From assembly GCF_000416985.1 (NCBI RefSeq), contig NZ_ATDL01000014.1, positions 310,001-374,000 on the forward strand: DNA of 64,000 nt, read 5' to 3'. Both the position numbers and the translations under genes were made by a program. Below are positions 2 to 31,037 of this stretch, piece after piece. The notes under the pieces are model-generated. The model was not told the origin of the DNA, searched no databases, and worked only from the letters and a program-made list of their open reading frames with translations. Every line of letters starts with the position of its first letter. Position 1 is the first letter of the stretch. The stretch comes from Sphingobacterium paucimobilis HER1398. Its GTDB lineage: Bacteria > Bacteroidota > Bacteroidia > Sphingobacteriales > Sphingobacteriaceae.

Positions 2-886
2 GGGATCGAACATAAGATTCCCAAACGGATAGAATATATACGTGTCTTAGTGTGTGAACTCAACCGGATCGCCTCGCATCTAATAGCGATAGGCACATAT
101 GGTATAGATATCGGCGCTTTTACACCATTTATGTGGTGTTTTAGAGATAGGGAACATATCATGAACCTATTGGAATGGGCGTCTGGCTCCAGAATGCTGT
201 ATAATTATATCTGGGTGGGCGGTTTGTTTTATGATTTGCCCGTCGGATTTGAAGAGCGCTGTCAGGAGTTTGTCCAATATTTCAAACCTAAGCTTGTCGA
301 ATTGGATGACTTATTGTCAACGAATCAGATTTTTATATCAAGAACAGCAAATATAGGTGTGTTGCCAGCAGATGTCGCAGTAAACTATGGCTGTTCGGGA
401 CCGATGTTGCGAGCGAGTGGCATCAAATGGGATTTGAGACGTATCGACGGGTACTCGGTGTACCCAGAATTGGATTTTGAAATTCCAATCGGAAAAGGCG
501 AGGCTGGAACAGTAGGCGACTCTTGGGATCGGTACAAAGTGCGTGTGGATGAAATCCATGAGTCCGTAAAAATAATAGAGCAATGTCTTGCACGGTTGTT
601 GTCTGATTTTGCACGTTTGCCGGACTTTGATCCGCGTGCATTAGTCCCGAAAAAAGTAAATCTGAAGGCTCAGAATTATTATGTACGTGCCGAAAATCCA
701 AAAGGAGAGTTGGGCTTTTACTTTGAGACACAAGAAAAGACAGACATTCCTAGGCGTTTAAAGGCTAGAGGGCCAAGTTTTAATAATCTTTCGGTACTTC
801 CGGAATTAGGAAGGGGTGTTTTGATAGCTGATTTGATAGCAATCCTGGGCTCAATAGATATTGTATTGGGAGAAGTGGATAGATAA
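2..886 (+). CDS. nuoD: NADH-quinone oxidoreductase subunit D, 5' end outside window
   Basis: This is the 49-kDa quinone-site subunit of respiratory complex I, on the peripheral arm at the membrane interface. The frame is open from base 2, so the gene begins upstream of the window; the GTG at 50 is internal. The visible 294 residues carry NuoD hallmarks: NRIASHL, the block [25 protein letters not shown], and the C-terminal [12 protein letters not shown] at which the family normally ends. The quinone-pocket His and Tyr lie in the missing N-terminus. No other nuo gene follows; a small-RNA candidate and an unrelated secreted protein come next, so any nuoE-N genes are upstream or elsewhere. Identification is firm. 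Confidence 0.95.
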
Positions 887-917: not shown

Positions 918-948
918 TTTGGAGTTTAAACATTAAGTTGTATCTTTG
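918..948 (+). promoter_or_regulatory. Bacteroidota promoter for small RNA A
   Basis: TTTG (918-921), a 19-nt spacer and TATCTTTG (941-948) match the Bacteroidota consensus TTTG-N19-TAnnTTTG exactly. Transcription would begin near 952 and run into the hairpin at 987-1010, while the next gene starts only at 1146. Confidence 0.7.
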
Positions 949-951
949 AGT

Positions 952-1018
952 TCTCATAATTTAAGTTTATAATTGGTTAATAGGAAGTCTGCATCCGCCC
1001 GGATGCAGGCTTTTTTAT
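952..1018 (+). ncRNA. Candidate small RNA A (two-copy family)
   Basis: A transcript of about 65 nt is predicted between a consensus promoter and an intrinsic terminator (10-bp stem 987-996/1001-1010, loop GCCC, then a T run). Positions 954-982 match 29507-29535 at 26 of 29 bases, and both copies then form a 10-bp stem of different sequence, capped by a C-rich loop and followed by TTTTTTA. The conserved single-stranded 5' block with a covarying stem suggests an RNA gene rather than only the nuoD terminator. I do not recognise the family. Confidence 0.5.
987..1017 (+). terminator. Intrinsic terminator (nuoD / small RNA A)
   Basis: A 10-bp stem (987-996 with 1001-1010, one G-T pair) has loop GCCC and is followed by TTTTTTATTTT. 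It would end both nuoD read-through and the small RNA. Confidence 0.8.
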
Positions 1019-1145
1019 TTTGGTAGAGACCATATATTCCGTGTTATCAGGATCGACAATAGAGCTACTTGATTTTTTACTAAAAGTTGTTGTATTGGAG
1101 AGATTTATCTAAGTTTATATGTCAAAACGATAACCAATAACAAAG

Positions 1146-27636: not shown

Positions 27637-28110
27637 ATGAAAGTAGCAGTTTTCCCAGGTTCATTTGATCCCTTTACTTATGCGCATCAGGATTTAGTGG
27701 ATCGCTCTTTAACGCTGTTTGATAAAGTTTATATTGCTGTAGGGGTCAATGCTTCTAAGAAGGGGCTTATGACCTACGAGGAGCGAAAATTGGCTATCGA
27801 AGAACTGTATAGAGGAGACTCGAGAGTGGTTGTGGATCTCTTTACCGGATTGACAGTTGATTATTGTCAGAAAGTAGGAGCCAACTTTATCCTGAGGGGA
27901 TTGCGGAATACGAAGGACTTTGAATATGAAGATACGATAGCGCAAAACAACCTTATACTGGCTCCGGGTATAGAAACTTATTTCCTGATAAGTCGTAGTG
28001 GTACGGCTCATATCTCTTCAACCATTGTTCGTGATATTCTCGGAAATGGAGGATCTGTCAATAAGTTGGTCCCTCCTGCGGTGCTGGCGTTTTTAAAGGC
28101 TAGGTCCTGA
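27637..28110 (+). CDS. coaD: Phosphopantetheine adenylyltransferase
   Basis: CoaD makes dephospho-CoA from 4'-phosphopantetheine and ATP, the penultimate step of CoA synthesis. The 157-aa protein has GSFDPFTYAH (8-17), YEERKLAIEELY, the conserved FILRGLRNTKDFEYE (about 87-101) and ISSTIVRDIL (about 127-136). The first motif is unusual: the nucleotidyltransferase pattern (T/H)-x-G-H reads T-Y-A-H, with Ala for Gly; the His is kept. Its 3' end overlaps the convergent helicase gene by 11 nt. Confidence 0.93.
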   Translation: MKVAVFPGSFDPFTYAHQDLVDRSLTLFDKVYIAVGVNASKKGLMTYEERKLAIEELYRGDSRVVVDLFTGLTVDYCQKVGANFILRGLRNTKDFEYEDTIAQNNLILAPGIETYFLISRSGTAHISSTIVRDILGNGGSVNKLVPPAVLAFLKARS

Positions 28111-29404
28111 AGAACTTTATTTTCTTGCCTTTGATCTTACCGTTTTCAGTATTTTTGATGATGGTTGTCAGCAAATGTCTTTTTATGGCAATATAAGACT
28201 CTTTGTCTTTTACTTCAATCAGACCTATATCTGTCTTTTCCAATCCTTCCATTTGTAGCATATATCCAACGATATCTATTTTATTTACCTTATCTTTTTT
28301 ACCATAAGGGATGTATACGGTTGCATAAGGGGTATTGTCCGGAAGCGGATACCTGTCTTCTAAGATGATCTCTTCGGTGTCGTCTGGAAGATAGGCGAAA
28401 TGATCTTCAGGTTTTAACATAATGACAACTTGTCCAGCATTGTTCATGCGTGCTGTTCGTCCGTTTCGATGTATAAATGCGTCTTCTTTGTTAGGCAGCT
28501 GATAATGTATGATTGTGTCAATCTGAGGAATGTCCAATCCTCTCGCTGCCAGGTCGGTAGTGATGAGTATCCTGTTGCTGTTATTCCTGAATTTAAGTAT
28601 TGCCAATTCCCGATCACGTTGTTCTAGCCCACCGTGAAACATATCGTGGATGAGTCCTCTGTCTTCTAATAGCTCACTGATATGGTCGACTGCATCTCGG
28701 TGGTTACAAAATATCAGTATCTTTTGGTTCTCTAGGCTGCATATTAGGTTGAATAGTGTCTGTAATTTGTATTGTGGCGGACATACTGTCTTTTTGAAAT
28801 GTATAGCAGGTTTGTTTTCTATGTCTGCTAAGAAGTCTAATTTTATGGGGTTGTTCAATTTGAGAACAGAGGGGAAATCATCTAGATCGGTAGCGGATGT
28901 CAATATTTTACGCTGAATAGCAGTACATGCGGAGATGATTCTTTCCAGTTGATCTAGGAAACCCAGTTCTAGCGATTTGTCAAACTCATCCAATACTAGG
29001 GTGTGGATACTGTCTGTTGAAAAATGTTTGTGATCCAGGTGGTATATGATACGTCCAGGAGTACCTATTAAGATACCAGGAGCCTCTTTCAATGCATTTC
29101 TCTCTGTCTTCGTGTCGTGCCCTCCATAGCAACATACTGTTTTATGGCCTTTTATGACTGTTTTGATAACAAATTCTATTTGTAAAGCCAGTTCGCGTGT
29201 AGGAACGACTATGAGGACTTGTACTTCATTTTTTTTGTTTATAATTAACTGCTCTATTAAGAGGCTAAAAGCTAGTGTCTTACCCGAGCCGGTGGGTGAT
29301 AATAATAGGAGATCTTGTGCTGGAGTGAATTGCGACAAGGTCTGTTTCTGCATATTATTAAGATCTTCGATCTGTAGTCTTTTTAACAGTGCTGATAATT
29401 CCAT
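28100..29404 (-). CDS. DEAD-box RNA helicase, DbpA-like
   Basis: The 434-aa ATP-dependent RNA helicase is probably for ribosome assembly. Helicase domain 1 has SPTGSGKTLAF, PTRELALQ, TPGRI and SAT; domain 2 has ITTDLAARGLDIP and HRNGRTARM. Motif II reads DEFD rather than DEAD. The C-terminal 75 residues (about 360-434) resemble the DbpA RNA-binding domain, which in E. coli DbpA recognises hairpin 92 of 23S rRNA. A TATCTTTG box (29409-29416) is 4 nt before the ATG, predicting a leaderless mRNA. rRNA targeting is inferred from the domain only. Confidence 0.87.
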   Translation of the reverse strand: MELSALLKRLQIEDLNNMQKQTLSQFTPAQDLLLLSPTGSGKTLAFSLLIEQLIINKKNEVQVLIVVPTRELALQIEFVIKTVIKGHKTVCCYGGHDTKTERNALKEAPGILIGTPGRIIYHLDHKHFSTDSIHTLVLDEFDKSLELGFLDQLERIISACTAIQRKILTSATDLDDFPSVLKLNNPIKLDFLADIENKPAIHFKKTVCPPQYKLQTLFNLICSLENQKILIFCNHRDAVDHISELLEDRGLIHDMFHGGLEQRDRELAILKFRNNSNRILITTDLAARGLDIPQIDTIIHYQLPNKEDAFIHRNGRTARMNNAGQVVIMLKPEDHFAYLPDDTEEIILEDRYPLPDNTPYATVYIPYGKKDKVNKIDIVGYMLQMEGLEKTDIGLIEVKDKESYIAIKRHLLTTIIKNTENGKIKGKKIKFFRT

Positions 29405-29506
29405 GGCGCAAAGATACTTTTTTCTACCTATTATCTGTCGAATAAGATGTTGCTGTAGTTAATAATGGTTTGTTTTTTGGCATGGGTTTTGTTTGTTATC
29501 TAGTAT

Positions 29507-29572
29507 TCATAATTTAGGTTAATAATTGGTTAGTAAAAAAGCGTTCAATCTCCCCGATTGAACGCTTTTTTA
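29507..29572 (+). ncRNA. Candidate small RNA B (two-copy family)
   Basis: Positions 29507-29535 match 954-982 at 26 of 29 bases; then a perfect 10-bp stem (29541-29550/29556-29565) with loop TCCCC and TTTTTTA. The stem sequence differs completely from copy A, yet both pair perfectly or nearly so and both loops are C-rich. Copy B sits between divergent genes (the helicase on the minus strand, eno on the plus), so there is no upstream plus-strand gene for it to terminate. The promoter is weak: TATCTAGT at 29497, with a T-rich -33 region. Confidence 0.5.
29541..29571 (+). terminator. Hairpin and T run ending small RNA B
   Basis: Perfect 10-bp stem GCGTTCAATC/GATTGAACGC with loop TCCCC, followed by six T. 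Confidence 0.82.
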
Positions 29573-29617
29573 TGATATAGTATGTAAGCTCTGTATGGAT
29601 ATTTCATATATAATTTC

Positions 29618-29693: not shown

Positions 29694-31037
<1,344 letters not shown>

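Follow-up and report, generated by a model that had tools for sequence, protein, structure and literature searches.

Among described systems, the one closest to the RNA genes considered here is FopS of Bacteroides, which, according to the accessible part of the report on it, blocks translation of susC through pairing at the start codon and is present in 12-15 copies per Bacteroides genome (PMC11697453). GibS of Bacteroides thetaiotaomicron is a base-pairing sRNA whose 5′ seed R1 also occurs in FopS; as described in the accessible parts of two reports (PMC7366714, PMC11697453), it is a single gene with two seeds, and we liken it to our family by description only. Rfp18 of Flavobacterium psychrophilum is likewise a conserved Bacteroidota sRNA, but the accessible part of its report describes it as strongly structured, with a third stem-loop that pairs with protease mRNAs (PMC9723704). 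The published sRNA work that we found is mostly on Bacteroides, with little for other Bacteroidota. In another phylum, the Hfq-dependent Qrr sRNAs of Vibrio are present in multiple copies that share one seed and have sigma-54-type promoters. We found no report of the family described below in the open-access literature, a scope outside which subscription papers mostly fall.

The window analyzed here, i.e., a stretch of 64,000 nucleotides from Sphingobacterium paucimobilis HER1398, contains two related predicted RNA genes, termed copy A and copy B. Their parts and neighbors are as follows.

2..886, + strand: NuoD-type gene (NADH dehydrogenase 49-kDa subunit), lying 5′ of copy A in conserved synteny
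918..921, + strand: -33 element TTTG of copy A, Bacteroidota sigma-A promoter, read directly
941..948, + strand: -7 element TATCTTTG of copy A, 19 bases 3′ of TTTG
953..1016, + strand: predicted sRNA of copy A, ~64 nt, with its start set by promoter geometry and its end by the T-run
955..979, + strand: conserved seed block CATAATTTAAGTTTATAATTGGTTA of copy A, from pattern scan and recount
984..1013, + strand: terminator hairpin of copy A, -20.2 kcal/mol, loop GCCC at 997-1000, T-run at 1011-1016
28100..29404, - strand: DbpA-type DEAD-box helicase, syntenic neighbor of copy B
29479..29492, + strand: sigma-54-like promoter GGCAT-N5-TTGT of copy B, first G 29 bases 5′ of the block
29504..29571, + strand: predicted sRNA of copy B, ~68 nt, start likewise predicted
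29508..29532, + strand: conserved seed block CATAATTTAGGTTAATAATTGGTTA of copy B, from pattern scan and recount
29533..29573, + strand: terminator hairpin of copy B, -22.3 kcal/mol, loop TCCCC at 29551-29555
29700..30995, + strand: enolase, syntenic neighbor of copy B

An earlier note on this window had described a match of 26 of 29 bases between the block of copy A (954-982) and that of copy B (29507-29535), a TTTG-N19 promoter before copy A, the loops GCCC and TCCCC, and a subsequent TTTTTTA in both copies; when the bases were recounted, all of this was exact to the base. A sigma-A type for the copy A promoter was supported by direct reading and by the count of promoter classes given below. 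Covariance-model matches correspond to copy A (G000:C13:310949-311021) and copy B (G000:C13:339502-339576). At its gathering threshold, Rfam called two tRNAs in the 64-kb window and nothing else.

The earlier note had spoken of a two-copy family; the source genome has 28 copies, two of them within the window. The string CATAATTTARNNTNATAATTGGTTA, with up to two mismatches, has 24 sites in the 5.13-Mb genome and none in a control read backward, so that the similarity is no accident. A covariance-model search, which the note had proposed, was carried out with a model built from 32 copies and found the 28 copies of the source genome at E ≤ 4.9e-10; it was positive in 31 of the 41 Sphingobacteriaceae genomes sampled, with 1-28 copies in each. 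Scanning named genome contigs for the exact pattern gave at least 116 stretches, in which the conservation of the seed arises by construction of the search; among the matches listed (80 titles) were Sphingobacterium, Parapedobacter, Mucilaginibacter, Olivibacter and bacterium A37T11. One copy of the source genome, L035, is near-identical, together with its flanks, to L072 from Sphingobacterium sp. xlx-96. When 295 genomes were sampled evenly across the class, the model matched 19 of them at E ≤ 0.001, i.e., nine of the ten Sphingobacteriaceae genomes and ten genomes outside that family, the latter with one weak match apiece. By eye, several of these ten looked like relatives (UUUUCAUA...UUUAGGUU) and some had a C-rich loop; three came from the same genus. 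Because E-values from the covariance model are rough, the matches outside the family are treated as a lead.

In each copy, some 25-30 bases that hardly vary precede an intrinsic terminator, the stem of which is variable but paired. Folding of 151 copies (24 from the source genome and 127 external copies among the matches listed) yielded 108 distinct hairpins with a mean energy of -16.8 kcal/mol; in this set, whose external members are again those among the matches listed, the loop is TCCCC in 89 cases and CCCAT in 38. The C-rich loop had been singled out in the earlier note, and it is indeed a kept feature, since 59 of 67 family terminators had CCC in the loop, versus 10 of 403 others (window plus the 116 external loci listed); terminators were found by one rule, which caught only part of those of the family, and some of the G-rich "others" represent family hairpins read from the opposite strand, e.g., that of copy B. 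If this loop has a role of its own, it may serve as a further site of contact or as a mark for a protein. In L037 (G000:C14:584863-584937), which lies 394 bp from a normal copy, the loop is GGGGA, the reverse complement of the TCCCC of its siblings. This was the sole case among the 151 copies (the external ones being matches listed), and such a loop could form a kissing contact with C-rich loops elsewhere in the family or could represent a simple hairpin inversion.

To assess covariation, 100 matches (93 distinct) originating from 83 loci were aligned; the alignment was made by the model and is therefore biased toward the model structure. Changes on both sides were seen in nine of nine model pairs (a count also reached by 5 of 500 shuffles), 98.4% of the alignment cells in the stem were paired versus 71.2% after shuffling, and the covariation score was reached by none of the 500 shuffles.

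The promoters of the 28 copies in the source genome fall into several types: nine are sigma-A, nine are sigma-54-like and ten are neither. The -7 element of the sigma-A type begins at -14 from the block in nine of the genome's own copies, including copy A, and in 33 external copies listed. In all nine own copies (of 28) with the sigma-54-like motif, GGCA[CT]-N5-TTG[CTA] (or T[AT]GC), the first G stands at -29, against a shuffle mean of 0.02. The motif ends in GC in six of these and in GT in three, among them copy B, where the -12 position is GT rather than GC and the remaining motif fits; a motif of the same pattern also precedes the syntenic copies L067, L140 and L142. The source genome has one sigma-54 gene (Sigma54_DBD). 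With a -24/-12 element of the GG-N10-GC type at a fixed distance in nine copies and an rpoN gene in the genome, a sigma-54 promoter is predicted for these nine. Among the 127 external copies listed, 35 are sigma-A and 14 sigma-54-like, 31 have GTCTT[TC]T directly 5′ of the block, 13 have a tRNA-like end and 34 belong to none of these types.

Three of the genome's own copies (L036, L037 and L043) carry an exact TTAACA-N5-TTAACA direct repeat, with an 11-bp period, at -52. There are ten exact occurrences of this repeat in the source genome versus five in the backward control; among these ten, five are located 36-85 bases 5′ of sRNA copies, and one precedes a DUF47/PHO4 operon that adjoins a histidine kinase gene. 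Two repeats with one mismatch stand before one of four PstS-like matches, the other three having no such repeat within two mismatches upstream, and none was found at one mismatch or fewer in the 64-kb window. The repeat before the three copies may be a PHO-type box, and we regard the PHO part of our proposal as a lead.

Other elements also recur upstream. An inverted repeat, GTGTA-N-TACAC, was noticed 5′ of the -7 element in sigma-A copies such as L033, L035 and L041; it occurs in 4 of 28 own and 15 of 127 external copies listed (shuffles, 0.02 and 0.06), and is perhaps an operator for some regulator. Direct repeats resembling TGTTAA-N5-TGTTAA lie about 65-70 bases 5′ of the seed in L061, L064, L087, L106, L122, L124 and L140. 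By eye, the promoters that follow them are sigma-54-like in some cases and of the CGTTATATA type in others. At one mismatch, two of the 28 own copies and eight of the 127 external copies listed have the repeat. In L048, L082, L089, L094, L103, L114 (all six from Mucilaginibacter) and others, the seed follows a conserved tRNA-Leu-like sequence with GGTTCGA. An origin of the 13 external copies of this type as tRNA trailers was rejected, as ARAGORN called a tRNA in none of 12 loci scanned and Rfam called none in L048, L082, L103 or L114; given these results, the upstream element is taken as simply a tRNA-like 3′ end.

We propose, with moderate confidence, that each copy encodes a base-pairing repressor of about 65-70 nt that would act on SusC-type genes under several inputs. 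Each RNA would consist of a single-stranded 5′ seed and an intrinsic terminator and would act in trans. The seed would pair, chiefly through its stretch AUUUAGGUUAAU, with an AACCU-containing stretch just 5′ of the start codon of SusC/RagA-type genes, with a possible second contact of UUCAU over AUG-AA. The pairing would block translation of SusC/RagA-type outer-membrane transporters, and the downstream nutrient-uptake operons would be turned off. Sigma-A promoters (some with an operator-like repeat), sigma-54-like promoters and PHO-box-like promoters would drive one common seed, so that different signals would have the same output. Computation shows the family with its anatomy, covariation, synteny and promoter motifs, and the complementarity of the seed to SusC leaders as a statistical signal; both transcription of the copies and repression of the targets are steps that we infer.

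The predicted targets were examined in the source genome, which has 56 SusC-type matches; from these, 51 distinct leaders were taken, with the first ATG of the gene as the start. Five pairs of these matches, on contigs C7 and C20, agree in both score and length, as would result from duplication within the assembly. Pairing of the seed with the 51 leaders gave a mean of -11.1 kcal/mol, compared with -9.38 (sd 0.58) for 100 dinucleotide-shuffled seeds, none of which was as low; the leaders in L193, L195 and L203 rank within the top five by pairing. There was no such signal with 45 genes of the window (84 of 100 shuffled seeds as low) or with 150 of 547 external genes (56 of 100 as low). A k-mer test that is independent of the seed gave AACCT as the top 5-mer of SusC leaders. 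This 5-mer, which occurs in the seed antisense, was present in 17 of 51 leaders, against 5.0 in shuffled leaders and an expectation of 3.6 from 592 other genes (p = 3.4e-7, uncorrected for the k-mers tested). It ended 2-38 bases 5′ of the ATG in all 17 leaders, with a second copy at 62 in one. The 6-mers AACCTA, TAACCT and AATTAT, all in the seed antisense, were among the top ten in SusC leaders; CAAATG, which ranked first, is not part of that antisense.

These findings bear directly on an alternative, i.e., that this is a true multicopy sRNA family whose main targets are other mRNAs or a protein, the SusC signal arising because the leaders are rich in AT and contain AACC motifs that originated otherwise. 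We consider this an appreciable but unlikely possibility. It is opposed by the persistence of the SusC signal against both shuffled seeds and shuffled leaders, and by the lack of a whole-seed signal in other genes. In its favor, energies of single duplexes are modest, with 13 of 51 SusC leaders below -12 kcal/mol versus a shuffled-seed mean of 6.72 (3 of 100 shuffles reached 13); the 17 of 51 leaders with AACCT also speak for it, as this motif may have another role in SusC leaders, and the C-rich loop suggests a second partner. The start-codon patch, too, is on its side. A scan of the seed in 10-base pieces had first indicated two patches, UAUUCAUAAU and AUUUAGGUUAAUAA. The seed pieces ATTTAGGTTA and TTAGGTTAAT gave z values of -3.0 and -3.3 with SusC leaders, -0.4 and -1.0 with window genes, and -1.3 and -1.7 with external genes. 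The start-codon patch, TATTCATAAT, gave -2.7, -1.4 and -2.2, respectively, and AGGTTAATAA differed little between the sets (-2.5 with SusC leaders versus -1.5 and -1.8). Because the start-codon patch pairs nearly as well with other genes, it has no SusC specificity, and the idea of two patches is weakened. The portion of the predicted pairing that is most specifically associated with SusC would be AUUUAGGUUAAU. An independent SusC set from relatives comprised only four genes and was uninformative, and inspection of coordinates by eye gave no obvious excess of sRNA genes near SusC genes. The proposed repression of SusC-type genes has statistical support from this complementarity.

Synteny of copies A and B supports the view of the family as RNA genes. 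Copy A has counterparts 3′ of nuoD in L054, L081, L144 and L145, whose stems are four different ones; in Parapedobacter (L076 and L084), the position 3′ of nuoD is kept by another sub-type. Copy B is matched next to dbpA in L142, and in L067 and L140 (three copies there) in the interval flanked by dbpA and enolase. The earlier note's view of an RNA gene in which the 5′ block is conserved and the terminator stem changes in a compensating way is upheld by folding, synteny and covariation, and there is strong support for a real, large and conserved family of sRNA nature. The note's interpretation as a whole is supported in part; it overlooked the sigma-54-like promoter of copy B and the 5′ block as the likely pairing region.

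Copies A and B both end about 130 bases 5′ of a same-strand gene, as would a cis-acting leader or attenuator of the next gene (enolase for copy B, an aspartyl protease/PDZ gene for copy A). This is very improbable, however, as enolase was found in two and the protease gene in none of the 116 external loci listed (tblastn, E 1e-10). That the copies are a repeated DNA element (MITE-like, an att site or a scattered terminator cassette) without an RNA function of its own is scarcely credible despite their high number, the several copies on one contig and their presence in viral contigs, because the common part besides the promoter motifs amounts, by eye, to some 30 bases and a hairpin that changes, promoters of different types lie at a fixed distance, and the same place is kept across species with compensating stems, for copy A even in Parapedobacter.

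The family of proposed SusC repressors also extends to phages. An exact seed-pattern scan of IMG/VR gave 43 viral contigs (L341-L383) with one listed stretch each, examples of the seed being L354:3142-3165 and L350:9728-9751; BLAST of one 69-nt copy against phage and plasmid collections gave no match. By eye, the hairpins of the phage copies are unlike most host hairpins. At least one of nine query phage proteins was found in 19 of the 43 viral pieces. A portal gene lies 0.8-2.8 kb upstream of the seed on the same strand in 16; L344 and L362 have terminase downstream only, and L383 has a capsid protein only. The nine query proteins were absent from 24 pieces, several of which are too short to tell. 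In five contigs examined closely, terminase, portal or head genes were found near the seed (PHROGs, Pfam). ARAGORN placed a tRNA 12 bases or fewer 5′ of the seed in 4 of 34 viral pieces, as did Rfam in L350. In L345 (4562-5689), an AbiH-type abortive-infection gene lies closely 3′ of the phage copy. The FopS 5′ block was found in 13 other viral contigs, in agreement with a remark on phage presence in the accessible part of the FopS paper (PMC11697453). We regard the phage part of our reading as a lead.

A broader reading, which is speculative and in our judgment improbable, would join this family, FopS and the weak matches outside the family in one Bacteroidota-wide sRNA superfamily, whose seed, with its UUCAU and AGGUUAA patches, would be directed against the start regions of SusC genes. 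In hosts, this seed would be wired to several signals, and phages would carry it in their portal/head module, some behind a tRNA, to lower SusC-type surface proteins of the host, e.g., excluding competing phages. A family with up to 28 copies, one seed and several promoter types lends itself to testing why bacteria maintain an sRNA in many copies. It also allows a test of whether control of SusC by sRNAs is phylum-wide and works without an RbpB-type protein, and the phage copies offer a specific example, open to testing, of a phage bearing a host sRNA seed.

The Rfam model of FopS (RF04319) aligned to both copies over its full length, copy A scoring 21.3 bits and copy B 21.8 bits, short of the cut-off of 56; since unrelated Rfam leaders and sRNAs score similarly, this bit score alone means little. 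At E ≤ 0.001, the same model matched none of ten Sphingobacteriaceae genomes and 11 of 295 genomes of the class. The best alignment of the seed with FopS agrees at 23 of 24 letters with three gaps, and for four string pairs 46, 85, 73 and 104 of 5000 shuffles scored as high, with two pairs in another register. In the alignment joining both, about seven bases that FopS has between UUCAUA and AUUUA are missing here. Loops are C-rich in our family, whereas the FopS copies compared by eye were without a run of C. FopS has canonical sigma-ABfr promoters, whereas here sigma-A promoters (9 of 28) stand beside sigma-54-like and PHO-box-like ones. A profile search found no RRM_1 (RbpB-type) protein in the source genome; such a protein is present in 15 of the 31 sRNA-bearing Sphingobacteriaceae genomes, the source genome being among the 16 without. 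Because the score lies far under the cut-off and the RRM protein is lacking, the family is termed FopS-like and not proven FopS. Several copies with one seed and sigma-54-type promoters are features also of Vibrio Qrr, to which we liken the family by description only. With FopS it shares multicopy paralogues of about 65-70 nt (a predicted length here), a predicted unstructured 5′ seed followed by a rho-independent terminator, UUCAU and AGGUUAA within that seed, SusC start regions as targets (here predicted only) and phage-borne copies, and the family likely acts as FopS does.
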